A model generated the notes under the pieces. The model worked only from the letters and a program-made list of their open reading frames with translations. It ran no database searches and was not told where the DNA came from. Source: Amycolatopsis pithecellobii (lineage in GTDB: Bacteria; Actinomycetota; Actinomycetes; Mycobacteriales; Pseudonocardiaceae). From it: a stretch of DNA of 64,000 bases. This document shows, in pieces, positions 15,282 through 25,112 of the stretch. The stretch's first letter is position 1. Each line of letters starts with the position of its first letter. The DNA is taken from the NCBI RefSeq assembly GCF_009707865.1, contig NZ_WMBA01000043.1:1-64000 (forward strand). The letters are read 5' to 3'. The position numbers and the translations under genes are program-made.

Positions 15282-16592
15282 TCATCCCTGGCCGGTGAAG
15301 GTGCGGCGGATGCCGCGCCAGACGTCGTCGTAACCCGGCTGCAGGTGTGCGGCCGAGCGGGCGAATTCGGTGGTGACCAGCGGCCAGCGCGTCTCGAACA
15401 TGAACGCCAGCGTGTCCTCGACCTTCTGCGGCACCAAGTCCTGTGCGCTCGCCTTCTCGAAGGTCTCCGCGTCCGGGCCGTGCGCCGACCACATGTTGTG
15501 CAGGCTCGCCCCGCCCGGTTCGAAACCCTCGGCCTTCGCGTCGTAGACCCCCTTGACCAGCCCCATGAATTCGCTCATCACGTTGCGGTGGTACCAGGGC
15601 GGGCGGAACGTGTCCTCGCCGACGAGCCAGCGCGGCGCGAAGATCACGAAATCCGCTCCCGCCTGTCCCGGCGTATCGGTCGGCGACGTCAGCACCGTGT
15701 AGATCGACGGGTCGGGATGGTCGAAACTGACCGTGCCCATCACGTTGAACCGCGCTGTGTCGTACTTGTACGCCGCGTGGTTTCCGTGCCACGCCACGAC
15801 ATCCAGCGGGGAATGGTCGTAGTCCGCCGCCCACAGCCCGCCGCCGAACTTCTGCACCACCTGCACCGTCTCCTCGCGGTCCTCGAACGCCGCGACCGGG
15901 TACTGGAAGTCACGTGGGTTGGCCAGGCCGTTCGCGCCGATCGGCCCGAGTTCGGGCAGGGTGAACGCCTGGCCGTAGTTCTCACAGACATAGCCGCGGG
16001 CCCGCGCGCCGAGCAGCACGACCCGGAACCGCACCCCGCGGCCGATCACCGCGATCTCCCCCGGCTCGACCCGCACCCGGCCGTACTCGGTGATCAGCAG
16101 CAACCCGCCCAGTTGCGGAACGAGCAGCAGTTCGCCGTCCGCGTCGACGAAGTAGCGGTCCTCCATCGACTTCGTGGCGAGGTACCAGTGAATCGCGATC
16201 CCGCTGCGCTGCAACACATTCCCGTTGGCGCCCACCGTGTACAGGCCGTCCACGAAATCCGTCGGCGTCTCCGGCAGTGCGGGTGCGCTCCAGCGCAGCC
16301 GGTTCGGGTCGGCCACCCCGGCCGGCACCGGCGCGCTGCGCAGCAGGCCCGCGGCATACGGCCGGAACGGGGGATGCGCGGCGGATGGGCGGATCCGGTA
16401 CACCCAGCTGCGGCGGTTGTGCCCGCGCGGTTCGGTGAACGCCGTCGCGCTGTGCTGCTCCGCGTAGAGCCCGAGCGGCGCGCGCTGCGGCGAATTCCGC
16501 CCGACCGGCAAGGCCCCCGGCACGGCTTCGCTGTGATGTTCATTGCCGAACCCCGCCGAGTACTCGAGCTGAGTCTCGATCGTGCCCGTCAT
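15282..16592 (-). CDS. hmgA: Homogentisate 1,2-dioxygenase
   Basis: 436 aa, the usual family length. It opens the ring of homogentisate to maleylacetoacetate in tyrosine/phenylalanine catabolism. Diagnostic stretches are [13 protein letters not shown] near the start, [20 protein letters not shown], and the iron-ligand region [15 protein letters not shown] (His and Glu six residues apart) with [10 protein letters not shown] supplying the second His. ATG 16592 is preceded by GAGGGGAG at 6 nt. No other tyrosine-degradation gene is adjacent. The long open frame that continues upstream only reflects the 102-bp repeats, whose unit is a multiple of three. Confidence 0.97.
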
Positions 16593-16653
16593 CGCGCACT
16601 CCCCTCGTCTCCTCCCCAGCGTGCCAGCCCGGTCAACCCGGCGCGATCTATCC

Positions 16654-16974
16654 GGTCGGATCAGTACTGCGCCGTTCGTTAATGATCCGACCGCAGCCAC
16701 GGCGGAAACGGGTTGCCCCGAGCAGGTCGGCAGCCGACCGTATCCGCCTACTTCCGGTCGGATCATTACTGCGCCGTTCGTTAATGATCCGACCGCAGCC
16801 ACGGCGGAAACGGGTTGCCCCGAGCAGGTCGGCAGCCGACCGTATCCGCCTACTTCCGGTCGGATCATTACTGCGCCGTTCGTTAACGATCCGACCGCAG
16901 CCACGGCGGAAACGGGTTGCCCCGAGCAGATCGGCAGCCGACCGTATCCGCCTACTTTCGGTCGGATCATTAAA
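16654..16974. repeat. 102-bp tandem repeat, three full copies plus a partial, with internal dyads
   Basis: Copies at 16654-16755, 16756-16857 and 16858-16959 differ at only one to three positions; a 15-bp fourth start is at 16960-16974. Each unit holds a 39-bp dyad (GGTCGGATCATTA, 13-nt loop, TAATGATCCGACC) and a 15-bp palindrome GGTCGGCAGCCGACC (for example 16725-16739). The block fills the gap between hmgA and the esterase start. It could be a multi-site operator, an mRNA structure or a replicating small repeat. Confidence 0.95.
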
Positions 16975-16988
16975 GTGGTGGCGTGGTG

Positions 16989-18353
16989 ATGATCAGTGGC
17001 GGTGAGCTCCGCGGACTGACCACGCCATCCGGGCTGACCGTGTTCCGCGGCGTCCCTTATGCCCGCGCCGGCCGGTTCGCGCCGCCCCGTCCCGTCGAGC
17101 CGTGGACCGGGGTGCGGGACGCGACCGGCCACGGGCCGATGAGCCCGCAGCCACGGGCCCGCCCCGGCGCGGTGATGGGCGTGCCACCCGAAGCGGCGCA
17201 GGGCGAGGACTGCCTGAACCTCACGATCGTCACCCCGGCCACCGCCGGGAAAAGACCGGTGCTCGTGTGGATTCCGGGTGGCGCCTACGTGACCGGCGCC
17301 GGGTCGCTGGACATCTACGACGGGCAACGGCTCGCGGTCGAAGGCGACGTGGTGGTCGTCGGCGTCAACTACCGGCTCGGCGCACTGGGTTATCTCAAGC
17401 TCGCCGGGGTTTCGCCGGGCAATCTCGGCCTGCTCGATCAGCTGGCGGCGCTGCGCTGGGTGCGGGACAACATCGCCGCGTTCGGCGGGGACCCGGACCA
17501 GGTCACGGTGTTCGGGCAGTCGGCGGGCGCGCATTCCATCGCATGCCTGATGGCGATGCCCGGCGCGGACGGGCTGTTCCGCCGGGCGATCCTGCAGAGC
17601 GCGCCGATGGCGATGAAGATCGCGAAACCGGCGCGCGCGGCCAGGGTCGCGCGGCTGTTCACCGCCGCGCTGGGCACCGACCCGCGCACCGCCAGCGTCG
17701 CGGAAATCCTTGCCGCGCAAGAGAAGGCGATCGTGCGCGCGGCCGGTCCCGGCGGGTTGTACTCGGTACCGCCGTTCAGCCCGGTCGCCGAAACCGGGCC
17801 GCTGCCGACGGTCGCGGGCTGGCTGCCCGCCGCCGTACGCCGGGCTCGCGACGTGGATGTCCTGATCGGCACCACGAAGGACGAGATGAACACGTTCCTC
17901 AACGACAAGCCGGGAATCCCGCTCATCGAGGCGAACCCGTTGGGCCGCAAGGGAATGGCGGCGGCGAAGAACGCCATCACCCGCTGGATGTTCGACGCGC
18001 CGTCACGCCGGTTCGCCGACGCGCTCGCCGCAGCGGGCGGCCGGGTGTTCACCTACCGGTTCGACTGGTCCGCACCGGCTTCGGGATTCGGTGCCTGCCA
18101 CTGCATCGAGCTGCCGTTCCTGCTGGGCGACCGGGAATCCTGGGCGGCGGCGCCGATGCTCGCGGGGACCGGCTGGGAGGAAATGGCCGAGCTAAGCCGG
18201 AAACTGCGTGCCGCCTGGTTGTCTTTCGCGAAGACCGGTGCTCCTTGCCTTGACTGGCAACGACATCTGCCCGGTGCCCCGCCCGGGTACACGTGGGCGG
18301 AAATTGGTCCGGACCGGCAAACTCGCGCCGGCGATCCCGCCGGGGTAGGGTGA
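16989..18353 (+). CDS. Type B carboxylesterase
   Basis: About 454 aa. Alpha/beta hydrolase of the carboxylesterase/para-nitrobenzyl esterase family: '[11 protein letters not shown]' near the start, EDCLNL, oxyanion-hole GGAYVTG, nucleophile elbow FGQSAGAHS and a late His in [13 protein letters not shown]. It hydrolyses short-chain esters; there is no signal peptide. Three in-frame starts cluster at 16983-16991; ATG 16989 is used, with only a weak GGTGG upstream. The fourth, partial repeat copy ends 14 bp before this start, so the repeats are its promoter region. Confidence 0.9.
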
Positions 18354-20624: not shown

Positions 20625-22190
20625 ATGAATCTGGCCGACGAGGCACAGCGGCTTCTCGCCGCGATGGCAACCGATTCCTTCGGGGATTTCTCCCCGTCGT
20701 TGTACGAAACCGCGAGGGTCGTCGCATTGGCGCCCCGGCTGGCCGGGCACGCAGGCAGAATTCGCTTCCTTCTCGGTGAGCAGAAAACGAGTGGAGAGTG
20801 GGGCGGACCAGGGGCGTATGCCTTGCTGCCCACACTGTCGGCGACCGACGCACTGTTCGCCGAACTGACCCGCACGGCGGATCCGCAAGCGGTACGAGCG
20901 GTTCACCGTGGACTGCTGGCGTTGTCCGGCATGCTGGAGCGGGACATCGCGTTGCCCGACACGGTCGCGATCGAGATTCTGGTGCCGTACCTGGTGATCA
21001 CGCTCAACACCCGGCTCGCCGGGCTCGAGGCGAATCCCTTGCCGGGACTGGAGTTCTGGCGGCACGGGCCACGGCTGCCCGTTCCGCCCGGGGCGCGGCC
21101 GGAGCTCCTGGTGCGGTTGCGCGAAGCGGTCGAGCGTGGCGCGGCGCTGCCGGACAAGCTCTGGCATTCACTGGAAATGCTGGGCCCGGTGGCGCGGGGC
21201 GCGTCGTTCGTGCACGCCGGGCGTTTCGGGGTGGGCTGCTCCCCCGCCGCGACCGCCGCCTGGTTCGGAACCGAGGCGGCACAAGGAAATCCGCATCCCG
21301 GAGTGCGCTACCTGGAACACCTGCAGGCCCGCCACGGTGGCCCGGTGCCCGTCGCCGCGCCGCTGGACGTGTTCGAGCGTGCCTGGGTGCTGACCACCCT
21401 GACCGACGTGGGACTGCCCGTCACGGTCCCGCCGGAACTCACCGCGGGACTGCGGGCGGCCTTCGGTGCGTCCGGCGCGCCCGGTGGCGCCGGCCTGCCG
21501 CCCGACGCGGACGACACCGCGACGGCGCTGCACGCGCTGGCAAACCTCGGGATGCCGTACCCGCTGGATTGCTTGTGGGAGTACCAGGTGGGCGAGCATT
21601 TCGCCACCTATCCGGACGAGCGCACTTCGTCGGTCAGCACGAATGCCCATGTCCTGCAGGCACTTGCGGCCTACCCACCCGGGGACAGCCGCATCGCCGC
21701 CACCATGACCGGCCTCGCGCGGTGGCTGGGTGACCGCCAGCAGGCCGACGGCAGCTGGACCGACAAGTGGCACGCGTCGCCGTACTACGCGACTCAGGCC
21801 TGTGTCGTCGCCCTCGCCGGCCGCGAGGAAAGTGTTGCGGTGACACGGAAATCGGTGCGCTGGGCGCTCGAAACCCAGCACGACAACGGTTCCTGGGGGT
21901 TCTGGGAGGGCACCCACGAGGAAACCGCGTATGCCGTGCAGATCCTGGTGCGCGCCGACGCGGACCTGGTCGATCCGGCGATCGAGCGGGCGGCGGCGGA
22001 CGGATGCGCGTACCTGCTGGAAAACACGGGCGGGCCGTGCCCACCCTTGTGGCACGACAAGGATCTCTACACACCGTCGCGCATCATCCACGCCGAAACG
22101 CTCGCGGCGCTGCATGTGGCCGGTACCCATCCTCGCGTCGCCGCCCGCCTCGCGCGGCGGCGCGGCGAGCGGACGGAACGGACGGCTTGA
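20625..22190 (+). CDS. Class II terpene (diterpene) cyclase
   Basis: 521 aa. Squalene-hopene/copalyl-diphosphate-synthase fold: the protonating DxDD motif is DADD at 294-297, with QW-like repeats QQADGSW (near 371-377) and QHDNGSW (near 418-424). Length and motif fit bacterial enzymes that fold geranylgeranyl diphosphate to a labdane-type bicyclic diphosphate; a smaller prenyl diphosphate is possible. There is no class I DDxxD/NSE pair. ATG 20625 lies about 7 nt after GGGGGA. Its stop overlaps the P450 start. The 246 bp upstream, shared with the divergent PAC2 gene, hold its promoter; I see no clear hexamers. No GGPP synthase is in the window. Confidence 0.9.
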   Translation: MNLADEAQRLLAAMATDSFGDFSPSLYETARVVALAPRLAGHAGRIRFLLGEQKTSGEWGGPGAYALLPTLSATDALFAELTRTADPQAVRAVHRGLLALSGMLERDIALPDTVAIEILVPYLVITLNTRLAGLEANPLPGLEFWRHGPRLPVPPGARPELLVRLREAVERGAALPDKLWHSLEMLGPVARGASFVHAGRFGVGCSPAATAAWFGTEAAQGNPHPGVRYLEHLQARHGGPVPVAAPLDVFERAWVLTTLTDVGLPVTVPPELTAGLRAAFGASGAPGGAGLPPDADDTATALHALANLGMPYPLDCLWEYQVGEHFATYPDERTSSVSTNAHVLQALAAYPPGDSRIAATMTGLARWLGDRQQADGSWTDKWHASPYYATQACVVALAGREESVAVTRKSVRWALETQHDNGSWGFWEGTHEETAYAVQILVRADADLVDPAIERAAADGCAYLLENTGGPCPPLWHDKDLYTPSRIIHAETLAALHVAGTHPRVAARLARRRGERTERTA

Positions 22191-23407
22191 TGAACCGGAC
22201 GGAGTTCGAACTCGCGTTCCGCACCCTGCCTTTTCTCGACGCCCATGCCGATCTGCCTGCCGGGATCCTGCCGGTCCGGCCGGGCCGGTTGCTGGTGTGG
22301 GAACCCGAAGCGCTGGACCGGATCTTCCGCGACGACAAGCGGCTCCGCCATCCTGGCAGCCGGTCGCTGAACCCACTGCTGGGGCCGAAATCCCTGCTGT
22401 GGGCCGACGGCGACCGGCACGCCGCGTACCGACGGGTGCTCGGCACGCCGTTGCGGGGGCGCCATCTCGCGCACTACCACGACATGATCACCGAGGTCAC
22501 CGGTGACGCGGTGGAGAAACTGGTGCCGGGCAAGACTTTCGTGCTCGCGGACTGGACCCGTCAGGTCGCGCTGAACATCGTCTCGCGGATCGTCCTCGGC
22601 GGCGCGGACGAAACCGCGCTGACCGCCTTCACCCAGTGGATCGACCGCGCGCTGGGCTCACGCCGGCGCACCCTCGCCTACCGCCTGTTGCGTGGCAAGC
22701 TGCCCGGGTCCGGCGAGCACCTGGACAGCGCACTCGTCCGGGTCGCGAAGTCCACTTCGGACGCACACAGCCTGGTCGCGCTGATGCTGGCGCCGGGCAA
22801 CCCGATCGGCCGGATCGATGACGGGGAGCTGCGCGACCAGATCGTGTCGCTGCTGTTCGCGGGACACGAGACGACGGCTTCGGCGACGGCGTGGACGCTG
22901 TACCAGCTGACCAGGCGCCCGCGGCTGCGCCAGGACGTACTGTCCGAATTGGACACCGGAGGCAACGCGAGCGATCCGGGCCGGGTTCCGTTGCTGCAGG
23001 CGGTGATCCAGGAGGTGCTGCGACTTTCCCCACCCGTCGAGGTCGCCGGAAACCGGCTGCTCACCGAGGAAACCGAGCTGCTCGGGCATCGCTGCCCGGC
23101 CGGCACGGTGGTGACCCCGGCGATCTACCTCGCGCATCACCGGTCCGGTCTTTTCCCACGGCCACACCGGTTCGACCCCGGCCGGTTCCTCGACCGCAAG
23201 GGAACTCCGGACGGTTACCTGCCCTTCGGCGGCGGGACGCGGTACTGCCTCGGCAGCCAGCTGGGGCAGCTGGAGATCCGGATGATCACGGCCGCCCTGG
23301 TGCGGCGGCGGACCTTGCGGGTGGTCAACCCGCGGGCCGGGAAACCGGCGTTGCGCGGGCACGCGATGGCGCCGTCGAACAGGCTGCGCGTGGAGGTGCT
23401 CAACTGA
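22190..23407 (+). CDS. Cytochrome P450
   Basis: 405 aa. I-helix AGHETT at 224-229, K-helix ExxR (EVLR) at 275-278 and heme loop FGGGTRYCLG with Cys353. Class I soluble bacterial P450; no ferredoxin or reductase gene is adjacent. ATG 22190 shares a base with the cyclase stop (TGATG), and its own stop overlaps the next start in the same way. The arrangement implies oxidation of the cyclase product. Confidence 0.95.
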   Translation: MNRTEFELAFRTLPFLDAHADLPAGILPVRPGRLLVWEPEALDRIFRDDKRLRHPGSRSLNPLLGPKSLLWADGDRHAAYRRVLGTPLRGRHLAHYHDMITEVTGDAVEKLVPGKTFVLADWTRQVALNIVSRIVLGGADETALTAFTQWIDRALGSRRRTLAYRLLRGKLPGSGEHLDSALVRVAKSTSDAHSLVALMLAPGNPIGRIDDGELRDQIVSLLFAGHETTASATAWTLYQLTRRPRLRQDVLSELDTGGNASDPGRVPLLQAVIQEVLRLSPPVEVAGNRLLTEETELLGHRCPAGTVVTPAIYLAHHRSGLFPRPHRFDPGRFLDRKGTPDGYLPFGGGTRYCLGSQLGQLEIRMITAALVRRRTLRVVNPRAGKPALRGHAMAPSNRLRVEVLN

Positions 23408-24309
23408 TGCTCGAAACGCGGGCTCACCGCGTGTGGCGCGACGTGGTGCTGGTGCACCGGCTGCAGTTCCCGCTGCCGGTCAGCTATCTCGGCGTGGCAC
23501 TGTGGGGCGCCTGCTTCGCGGTCGGCGCGCCGGAACAACTGGCGTCCTGGCCGGTGCTGACCGTCATCGTGGCGAATATCCTGCTGATTCTGGGCCCGCT
23601 CGCACTCAATGTCGCACTCGACAGGGAATTGGACAGCCGTCACCGCGAAAAAAACACACTCGCGACGGCGGCGAAACATTTCGGCGGAAACGGTCTCGTC
23701 GTGGCGTCAGTCGCGGAAATGGTGGCCGGCCTCCTCATCGCGGGCACGGTTTCGGTCGTACTCGGCCGGCCCCAGATCACACTGACCGCGGCCGGCATCG
23801 TGGTCCTGCACCTGCTCTACAACGTCGAGCCGGTCCGCCTGAAACGCCACGGCATGACCGGCGCGGCGGTGTTCGGCATCGGGGCGACCACCGGTCCCGC
23901 CCTGCTCACCTACTTCGCGGTGGCCGCGAACGTGCCCGCGCCAATCCGGCTCGCCTTCGCCGGGCTCGGCGTCATGGCGATCGGCCGCACCGCCTGGTGG
24001 TCGCTGCCCGACCGCGCCGCCGACCTGGCCGCGGGGCAGCAGACCCCGGTTGCCCGCTACGGCCTGCGGGGCACGGTCGTGCGATCGTGCCTGCTGCTGG
24101 TGGCCGGTCTGGTGTTGCTGGCCTGGGGGCTGGTGTGGCGATTCGGTCCGGCCTTGGCGGTGGCCGGGATCGCGGCGTACGCGCTGTTCCTGGCCGACGT
24201 GCTGCGCACCCGCCGGCATCCGGGGACCGCCCGGCGCATGCTGCGCCGGGCGATGCCCCTCATCGCATGCGGGGACGTCCTGCTGGCGGTGATCGCCCTG
24301 GCCGGCTAG
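23407..24309 (+). CDS. UbiA-superfamily membrane prenyltransferase or terpene cyclase
   Basis: 300 aa with about 8-9 membrane segments. First Asp-rich motif NVALDRELD (N68, D72, D76) is intact. The second (PDRAADLAAG; D202, D206) lacks the third Asp usual in DxxxDxxxD, having Gly there. LLYNVEPVRLKRHGMTG is the typical UbiA loop. Its place after a DxDD cyclase and a P450 suggests it either prenylates a small acceptor or ionises the bicyclic diphosphate as a class I cyclase, as known for some UbiA-type terpene cyclases. Its TAG shares CTAG with the convergent methyltransferase stop. Confidence 0.88.
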   Translation: MLETRAHRVWRDVVLVHRLQFPLPVSYLGVALWGACFAVGAPEQLASWPVLTVIVANILLILGPLALNVALDRELDSRHREKNTLATAAKHFGGNGLVVASVAEMVAGLLIAGTVSVVLGRPQITLTAAGIVVLHLLYNVEPVRLKRHGMTGAAVFGIGATTGPALLTYFAVAANVPAPIRLAFAGLGVMAIGRTAWWSLPDRAADLAAGQQTPVARYGLRGTVVRSCLLLVAGLVLLAWGLVWRFGPALAVAGIAAYALFLADVLRTRRHPGTARRMLRRAMPLIACGDVLLAVIALAG

Positions 24310-25112
24310 TGCTTGCGGGCGAGCCCGGCGTAGACCTCGGCCAGGTGCGGGTTGCGGTCGATGGGCTCGGTGTCCGGGCGCCACAACGGCACCGGCACCA
24401 GACCCGGCTCGACCATCTCCAGGCCGGTGAAGAAGCGGGCCTGCTGCTCCGGCGAGCGCAACGTCACCGCCGGCGGCGCACCGAACATCCGGCTGAAAAT
24501 GTTCAGCCCCTTCTCCAGGTCCTCGTTCGGGCTGAAATGCGAGATCCCGAGGTAACTACCCGGCGCCAGCGCCGCGACATAAGAGCCGACGACCCCCTCC
24601 GGGTCATCGCTGTCGGGCAGATGCAGCAACGTCTCGATCAACAGCACCGCGACCGGCTTCCGCAGATCAAGCAGATTCCGCGTCTCGGGCGCGTCGAGCA
24701 CGTCCGAGGGACGCCGGATATCGGCCTCCAGATAGGCGGTGTTCGGCTCTCCGGCGAGCAGCGCCCGCGCCTCACCGGCGAGGCTGGCATCAATGTCGAC
24801 GTAGACGACCTTGGCGTCCGGGTTGACCTGCTGAGCGATCTGATGCACCTGACCATCGGCCGGAACACCCGAACCCAGGTCGAGGAACTGGGTGATGCCC
24901 TGCTTGGCCAGGTAGCGGACCATCCGGGCCAGCAACAGCCGCTGCGCGCGCACCAGGAACGGCAGGTGCGGCGCGCAGACCAGGATGTGCTCACCGATCT
25001 CCACGTGCGCCGAGGTGTGGTGACTGCCGTCCAGCCAAGCGTCCCGCACCCTGGCGATGGTGCCGGGGGCGACCGCTCCTTCCACCGACGGAACCTGCAT
25101 AGGCGATGCCAC
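24306..25112 (-). CDS. SAM-dependent methyltransferase (DUF574 / Methyltransf_19 type)
   Basis: 268 aa. SAM-binding motif I is FLDLGSGVPADGQVH, then VVYVDIDASL. The N-terminal RVRDAWLDGSHHTSAHV and the C-terminal FFTGLEMVEPGLV match the large Streptomyces/Amycolatopsis family once called DUF574. Substrate unknown. GTG 25112 has GGAGG 10 nt upstream; ATG 25100 is an alternative. It converges on the ubiA-like gene, the two stops sharing CTAG at 24306-24309. It is not in the terpene operon but could still tailor its product. Confidence 0.88.
   Translation of the reverse strand: MASPMQVPSVEGAVAPGTIARVRDAWLDGSHHTSAHVEIGEHILVCAPHLPFLVRAQRLLLARMVRYLAKQGITQFLDLGSGVPADGQVHQIAQQVNPDAKVVYVDIDASLAGEARALLAGEPNTAYLEADIRRPSDVLDAPETRNLLDLRKPVAVLLIETLLHLPDSDDPEGVVGSYVAALAPGSYLGISHFSPNEDLEKGLNIFSRMFGAPPAVTLRSPEQQARFFTGLEMVEPGLVPVPLWRPDTEPIDRNPHLAEVYAGLARKH

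Follow-up and report, generated by a model that had tools for sequence, protein, structure and literature searches.

Which enzyme takes up the product of a class II diterpene cyclase when no class I synthase is encoded beside it? The question is raised by a three-gene cassette in 64,000 nucleotides of Amycolatopsis pithecellobii DNA (contig NZ_WMBA01000043.1, positions 1 to 64,000; hereafter the window), where a gene for such a cyclase is followed by genes for a cytochrome P450 and a membrane protein of the UbiA family. Judging from sequence comparisons, the cassette probably encodes a minimal diterpenoid pathway in which the intramembrane UbiA enzyme serves as the class I synthase. The three genes, and a fourth that probably belongs with them, are:

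20625..22190, + strand: class II diterpene cyclase (P0001, 521 residues), a predicted (ent-)copalyl diphosphate synthase, with a SQHop_cyclase_C domain and kinship to PtmT2
22190..23407, + strand: cytochrome P450 (P0002, 405 residues), with a Pfam p450 match and a haem loop
23407..24309, + strand: UbiA-fold membrane enzyme (P0003, 300 residues), a predicted PtmT1-like type I diterpene synthase
24306..25112, - strand: S-adenosyl methyltransferase of the Methyltransf_19 family (PF04672, E 7.2e-70), convergent, the probable fourth member

The cyclase/P450 and P450/UbiA junctions read CTTGATGAAC and ACTGATGCTC, i.e. TGATG twice, the stop-to-start overlaps that a first-pass annotation of this DNA had reported. 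Pfam E-values are 4.7e-9 for SQHop_cyclase_C in the cyclase, 5.2e-51 for p450 and 1.7e-19 for UbiA; none of the three proteins reaches an NCBIfam family cut-off. No sigma-70-like promoter site was found for the cassette, a result of little weight for such an organism.

The cyclase has its DxDD motif as DADD (residues 294-297), with DTVAIE at 112-117 and LWHDKDLY at 475-482, and a pattern search found no class I motif (DDxxD/E, NSE/DTE-type) in it. The first-pass annotation had described the DxDD motif and the lack of a class I motif and had deduced that the cyclase product keeps its diphosphate, which the missing class I motif supports. It had also considered that the protein might be a non-catalytic homologue; this was rejected, the catalytic motifs being intact. 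Among solved structures, PtmT2 (5BP8) is the top match (E 1.4e-104) and Tpn2 (7XKX) the second. An aspartate at the position of PtmT2 D502, equivalent to Tpn2 G485, is reported to steer the reaction to labdane rather than clerodane formation, and a metal/diphosphate role has been proposed for the DxxxxE motif of such cyclases (PMC9814783). The window cyclase possesses both the labdane-directing aspartate, within LWHDKD, and the DxxxxE motif; DxDD, LWHDKD and DTxAxE are retained in all 50 cassette cyclases of the family survey described below. The predicted product is probably copalyl diphosphate, kinship with PtmT2 being the sole hint of the ent form.

The P450 displays AGHETT at residues 224-229 and the haem loop FGGGTRYCLG at 346-355. 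The UbiA protein carries both diphosphate/metal motifs, NxxxDxxxD (68-76) and DxxxD (202-206), and together with its predicted UbiA fold these are the features that define the UbiA superfamily. A PDB sequence search with this protein alone gave no match up to E 1.

PtmT2 is described as the ent-copalyl diphosphate synthase of platencin biosynthesis and PtmT1 as the ent-atiserene synthase acting on its product (PMC4004862, PMC10847714); the atiserene branch is reported to employ a UbiA-type synthase (PMC10301674). We found a homologue of this system in genus g71, taken as Streptomyces by inference from its 97% PtmT2 homologue. A PtmT2 relative is present in 24 of its 392 genomes, one of them at 97% identity (locus L158). 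There, the cyclase gene is followed by a P450 gene (TGATG overlap) and a UbiA gene (ATGA overlap), in the same order and on the same strand as in the window. L158 is the only one of the 21 g71 loci examined, out of 24 matched, that has this UbiA. Nearby genes for a polyprenyl synthase, IspH, an acyl-CoA dehydrogenase and a class I synthase agree with what the platensimycin cluster should contain. We take the L158 UbiA to be PtmT1 by its position and the published description. Identities between window and L158 proteins are 45.1% for the cyclase, 51.9% for the P450 and 38.1% for UbiA. PtmO5 is described as a C11 hydroxylase, and the P450 between ptmT2 and ptmT1 at L158 may be this enzyme. The ptmT2-P450-ptmT1 segment and the window share three gene families, their order, strand and TGATG/ATGA overlaps. 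The platensimycin/platencin core is, however, embedded in a larger cluster with polyprenyl synthase, class I synthase and acyl-CoA chemistry, whereas the window cassette lies among unrelated-looking genes and is accompanied by the Methyltransf_19 gene.

The two cassettes share ancestry. In the UbiA tree, the L158 UbiA stands beside that of L073 (support 100/85), then with L069 and L080 (99/96), inside a set of 61 rows (90/91, with long outgroup branches) that includes every one of the 50 cassette UbiAs and leaves out L093 and the five other UbiAs of the window genome. In the cyclase tree, PtmT2 falls within the 63-row set to which the cassette cyclases belong (Shimodaira-Hasegawa-like approximate likelihood-ratio test, SH-aLRT, 96), and in the P450 tree that of L158 groups (99) with six further P450s, L073 and L080 among them. 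The trees of cyclase, P450 and methyltransferase were computed quickly, without bootstrap and with long-branch warnings; the cyclase tree left out L164, L211, L214, L219 and rows below 380 residues, among them L137-L140. That the window UbiA serves core metabolism, such as menaquinone or haem O formation, was rejected on alignment scores and on the tree: the L158 UbiA aligns with it at a score of 494, the five other UbiAs of the genome at 15-65, and these five lie outside the cassette clade. A UbiA-family profile at 1e-25 matched the window's own genome alone among 394 genomes of the class, and a plasmid search with UbiA returned one weak Rhodococcus record.

Cyclase and UbiA are inherited together across the family. 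In a survey of 390 family genomes (cut-offs 0.001 for UbiA and 1e-20 for the cyclase), a UbiA relative occurs in 75, a cyclase relative in 95 and both in 71; the cyclase is thus present in 71 of 75 UbiA-positive versus 24 of 315 UbiA-negative genomes (Fisher p 1.4e-51, uncorrected for relatedness). From part of the matching genomes, 60 stretches were fetched around UbiA matches, with flanks of median about 7 kb and minimum 1.6 kb; L033 (Gandjariella thermophila), the same locus as L067, was left out everywhere as a duplicate. The first-pass annotation had proposed looking for the three-gene order across Pseudonocardiaceae, and cyclase, P450 and UbiA indeed follow one another on one strand at 49 of these 60 loci and in the window, giving 50 cassettes; this, together with the overlaps, strengthens its view that the three genes act together. 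With start codons chosen by script, the first junction varies between -7 and +19 bases, and the second is an overlap in 49 of 50 cassettes, in 38 of them by 13 bases. Within the window's genus, 18 of 19 genomes have both cyclase and UbiA. A shorter version of the cassette occurs in genus g25 (L082-L085), with proteins of 431-432, 363-371 and 276-278 residues and the checked motifs intact.

What stands in the place of UbiA where it is absent? Using class I hidden Markov models built from 37 and 28 sequences, we detected no class I synthase in any of the 60 fetched UbiA stretches, 49 of which hold the cassette, and Terpene_syn_C_2 has no match on the window contig. When 394 genomes of the class were scanned, near full-length kindred cyclases turned up chiefly in another family, f19. 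Forty-five stretches with such cyclases were fetched outside the window's family, 5 of them plasmid records and the others in two sets of 20. A class I synthase lies within 5 kb, with no cassette-type UbiA, in 40 of them and neither partner in 4, L158 being the sole stretch with both. Because 40 of the 45 kindred cyclases adjoin a class I synthase instead, UbiA appears to fill the class I slot. That no soluble class I synthase is present, as claimed at first pass, holds for the 64 kb window and for the contig; the accompanying claim that UbiA is the linked enzyme using the cyclase product gains support from this absence in the window and from the kinship with PtmT1.

Described and catalogued clusters show the same slot occupied differently. 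The Streptomyces plasmid labdane clusters L145 and L146 run polyprenyl synthase, class II cyclase, P450, class I synthase. Like the window, they place a P450 after the cyclase and a diphosphate-using enzyme after the P450, UbiA standing in the class I position; unlike the window, they have a soluble class I synthase, their own polyprenyl synthase and a P450 that is 29.5% identical. Clusters in the order P450, class I, class II (L123-L126, L128, L129, L131-L135 and L137-L141, mostly from f19, and L144 on a Micromonospora plasmid) share with the window a P450 and a kindred cyclase (41-48% identity by tblastn) and differ in their class I synthase, gene order and P450 family (27.2% identity for L144). 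The Rv3377c/Rv3378c pathway, described as making halimadienyl diphosphate and passing it to a transferase, resembles the window in that a class II cyclase precedes a separate diphosphate-using enzyme. The partner of Rv3377c is not known to be a UbiA protein. The window cyclase matches Rv3377c (6VPT) at 1e-26, versus 1e-104 for PtmT2, and Rv3377c is reported to have alanine at the labdane-directing position (PMC9814783).

The Methyltransf_19 gene faces the UbiA gene, and their ends overlap by 4 bases; the same directly convergent arrangement recurs at 39 of the 50 cassettes. In a tree of 55 methyltransferase copies, which left out copies below 180 residues, among them L034 and L070, all 40 analysed UbiA-adjacent copies fall within one set of 44 (SH-aLRT 100). 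The set also includes copies beside a detached cyclase (L206) and near detached UbiA genes (L035, L086), and one that lies in a cassette locus but away from the UbiA gene (L077); outside it are the remaining 11 copies, of which one is plasmid-borne. Since the UbiA-adjacent copies form a clade of their own, the Methyltransf_19 gene tracks the cassette, and it is probably a fourth member that the first-pass annotation overlooked. Its predicted role would be O-methylation of a hydroxyl or carboxyl group, and this clade may help to assign a role within that methyltransferase family.

We propose the following pathway. The five polyprenyl synthase matches of the genome all lie off the window contig, and such a gene is present at 2 of the 50 cassette loci, so geranylgeranyl diphosphate (GGPP) is expected in trans, from a synthase encoded elsewhere. 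GGPP would be protonated by the DADD motif of the cyclase to give copalyl diphosphate, probably ent, which would enter the membrane with its diphosphate retained. UbiA would bind it via Mg2+ at NxxxDxxxD and DxxxD, ionise it and cyclise it further, in the class I role played by PtmT1. The P450 would then hydroxylate the resulting hydrocarbon, in which a hydroxyl or carboxyl group may be capped by the convergent methyltransferase. For the skeleton, our first guess is the ent-atiserene type, and another one is quite possible given the divergence of UbiA. Of the labdane-type pathway suggested at first pass, the labdane-type (copalyl) intermediate stands, on the aspartate of LWHDKD; the final skeleton should instead be further cyclised and labdane-related.

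Several observations weigh against this pathway or complicate it. The stereochemistry of copalyl diphosphate cannot be read from sequence, and the window UbiA is just 38% identical to an enzyme itself named PtmT1 by position and description. A fold search with UbiA recovered UbiA structures of prenyltransferase type, and aromatic prenyltransferases have the UbiA fold too. A homogentisate dioxygenase gene lies close by, probably by coincidence. Five Terpene_syn_C_2 matches lie on other contigs of the genome (C134, C59, C80, C74). A further 31 class II stretches were fetched in the family: a class I synthase stands within 5 kb in 9 of them, and the other 22 have neither partner; some of the 22 have several P450s and some are detached cassette cyclases. 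The number of cyclases with neither partner and the nearby homogentisate gene slightly lower our confidence. As to conservation, the class II search at 1e-20 finds nothing in 4 of the 75 UbiA-positive genomes (G234, G238, G245, G334), 24 genomes match for class II but lack a cassette-type UbiA, the full cassette is missing at 11 of the 60 fetched loci, 11 of the 50 cassettes have no adjacent methyltransferase, and in the 63-row cyclase set a class I synthase accompanies 7 rows and neither partner is found for 4. On the other side of the balance, genomes in which the cassette is split still retain its parts at separate places.

The alternative that survives best is that UbiA is a prenyltransferase: the cyclised C20 diphosphate would be attached to an acceptor from elsewhere, giving a meroterpenoid for the P450 and methyltransferase to decorate. 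Most described UbiA proteins are prenyltransferases, the closest solved structures are of this type, as said above, and a convergent methyltransferase could modify an acceptor. Homogentisate is, moreover, the acceptor for some UbiA prenyltransferases, and the nearby gene is:

15282-17720, - strand: homogentisate 1,2-dioxygenase (HgmA), three genes upstream of the cassette

It lies near the cassette solely in loci of the same genus. The ten neighbours scanned encode HgmA, GH3, PAC2, Methyltransf_19, homocysteine S-methyltransferase, TetR, HTH, DUF218, WbqC and penicillin-binding proteins, and none of them is an acceptor-making gene; Methyltransf_19 is the only flanking family that recurs at loci beyond the genus. 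As the window UbiA also shares its clade with that of L158, our presumed PtmT1, which the literature describes as a class I diterpene synthase, we regard the prenyltransferase alternative as unlikely.

Decidedly less probable is that a class I synthase encoded elsewhere in the genome uses the cyclase product, leaving UbiA another task. The five Terpene_syn_C_2 matches on other contigs would supply candidates, but the cyclase accompanies UbiA in 71 of 75 UbiA-positive genomes even when the two genes are apart, and class I synthases are found in none of the 60 UbiA stretches as against 40 of the 45 extra-family ones. We give hardly any weight to the last alternative, in which UbiA cyclises GGPP directly, in parallel with the class II cyclase, and two separate scaffolds result: a review does describe StlTC of S. 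lydicus, a UbiA-type diterpene cyclase that makes lydicene from GGPP, and UbiAs without an adjacent class II gene do form a clade (98/99) with two members in the window genome, but the single tight operon argues for a common intermediate and the genomes holding that clade, listed next, all have a cassette or a cassette-type cyclase.

This clade comprises six UbiAs (L034, L035, L079, L081, L086, L092), of which L034:9015-9929 and L035:8978-9907 belong to the window's own genome. Four of the six come from genomes that have a full cassette as well (G000, G174, G176); for the remaining two, in G172 and G263, the only cyclase match of the genome is of cassette type and sits elsewhere. In G172, cyclase and P450 remain side by side, and about 2 Mb separate them from UbiA; in G263 and G378 the parts lie apart too. 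UbiA copies without an adjacent cyclase may draw on the same copalyl diphosphate pool. The parts of the cassette also differ in their affinities. In the window and in L036, its closest relative, the cyclase is placed with L048/L054 (SH-aLRT 96) and the P450 with the L044 group (99), while UbiA has a long branch and attaches loosely to the L048 and L040 groups (92/83). These discordant placements suggest that parts have been exchanged within the cassette.

Is the layout new? The first-pass annotation had thought it possibly undescribed, which is not supported: the same three-gene order occurs beside a 97% PtmT2 homologue, a UbiA-type ent-atiserene synthase has been published, and a survey reports likely UbiA cyclases in 14% of 342 actinobacterial ent-copalyl diphosphate synthase clusters (PMC9814783). 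With this pairing already known, what is new is its stand-alone, widely kept four-gene form and the link to the platencin core. An open-access literature search, which lacked most subscription journals, found no paper on the cassette in Pseudonocardiaceae, weak evidence of absence.

Characterisation of UbiA-type type I diterpene synthases has been sparse, and PtmT1 had looked like an odd enzyme of one antibiotic cluster. Its family would instead be a regular partner of copalyl diphosphate synthases in dozens of species, with UbiAs that have diverged beside conserved cyclases, and the UbiA set offers a panel for asking how an intramembrane prenyltransferase fold builds polycyclic diterpenes. 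A broader scenario is put forward tentatively. Pseudonocardiaceae may hold an old, self-contained four-gene module, near-core in the window's genus, whose product would be a polycyclic diterpenoid that is oxidised, perhaps also methylated, and undescribed. Lineages would vary the product by swapping or diverging the P450 and UbiA while keeping the cyclase, detached UbiA or P450 copies would tap the same intermediate, and Streptomyces would have taken one cassette as the platensimycin/platencin core. The cassette would then be a possible origin of the platencin core, and its products a conserved metabolite family to be characterised.

As regards the setting of the cassette, a recently acquired island was rejected: no mobile gene is present among the ten scanned neighbours, and several flanking genes keep their place across loci of the window's genus. 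Of the extra genes that accompany the core in the platensimycin/platencin cluster, neither a GGPP synthase nor acyl-CoA chemistry is encoded by the ten scanned neighbours, and the contig has no polyprenyl synthase match; aminodihydroxybenzoate genes were not searched separately.

Three further arrangements of class II genes were observed. In the family, L194 and L199-L202 represent another class II cluster, with three or four P450s and neither a class I synthase nor a UbiA detected. In g71, the cyclases of L159-L161 lie inside the UbiA-linked clade (SH-aLRT 96) and yet stand beside class I-like and polyprenyl synthase genes, possibly a return to the canonical partner. In four genomes (L137-L140), P450 and class I synthase genes are accompanied by a class II homologue in two adjacent or overlapping frames, its halves seemingly being separate genes.

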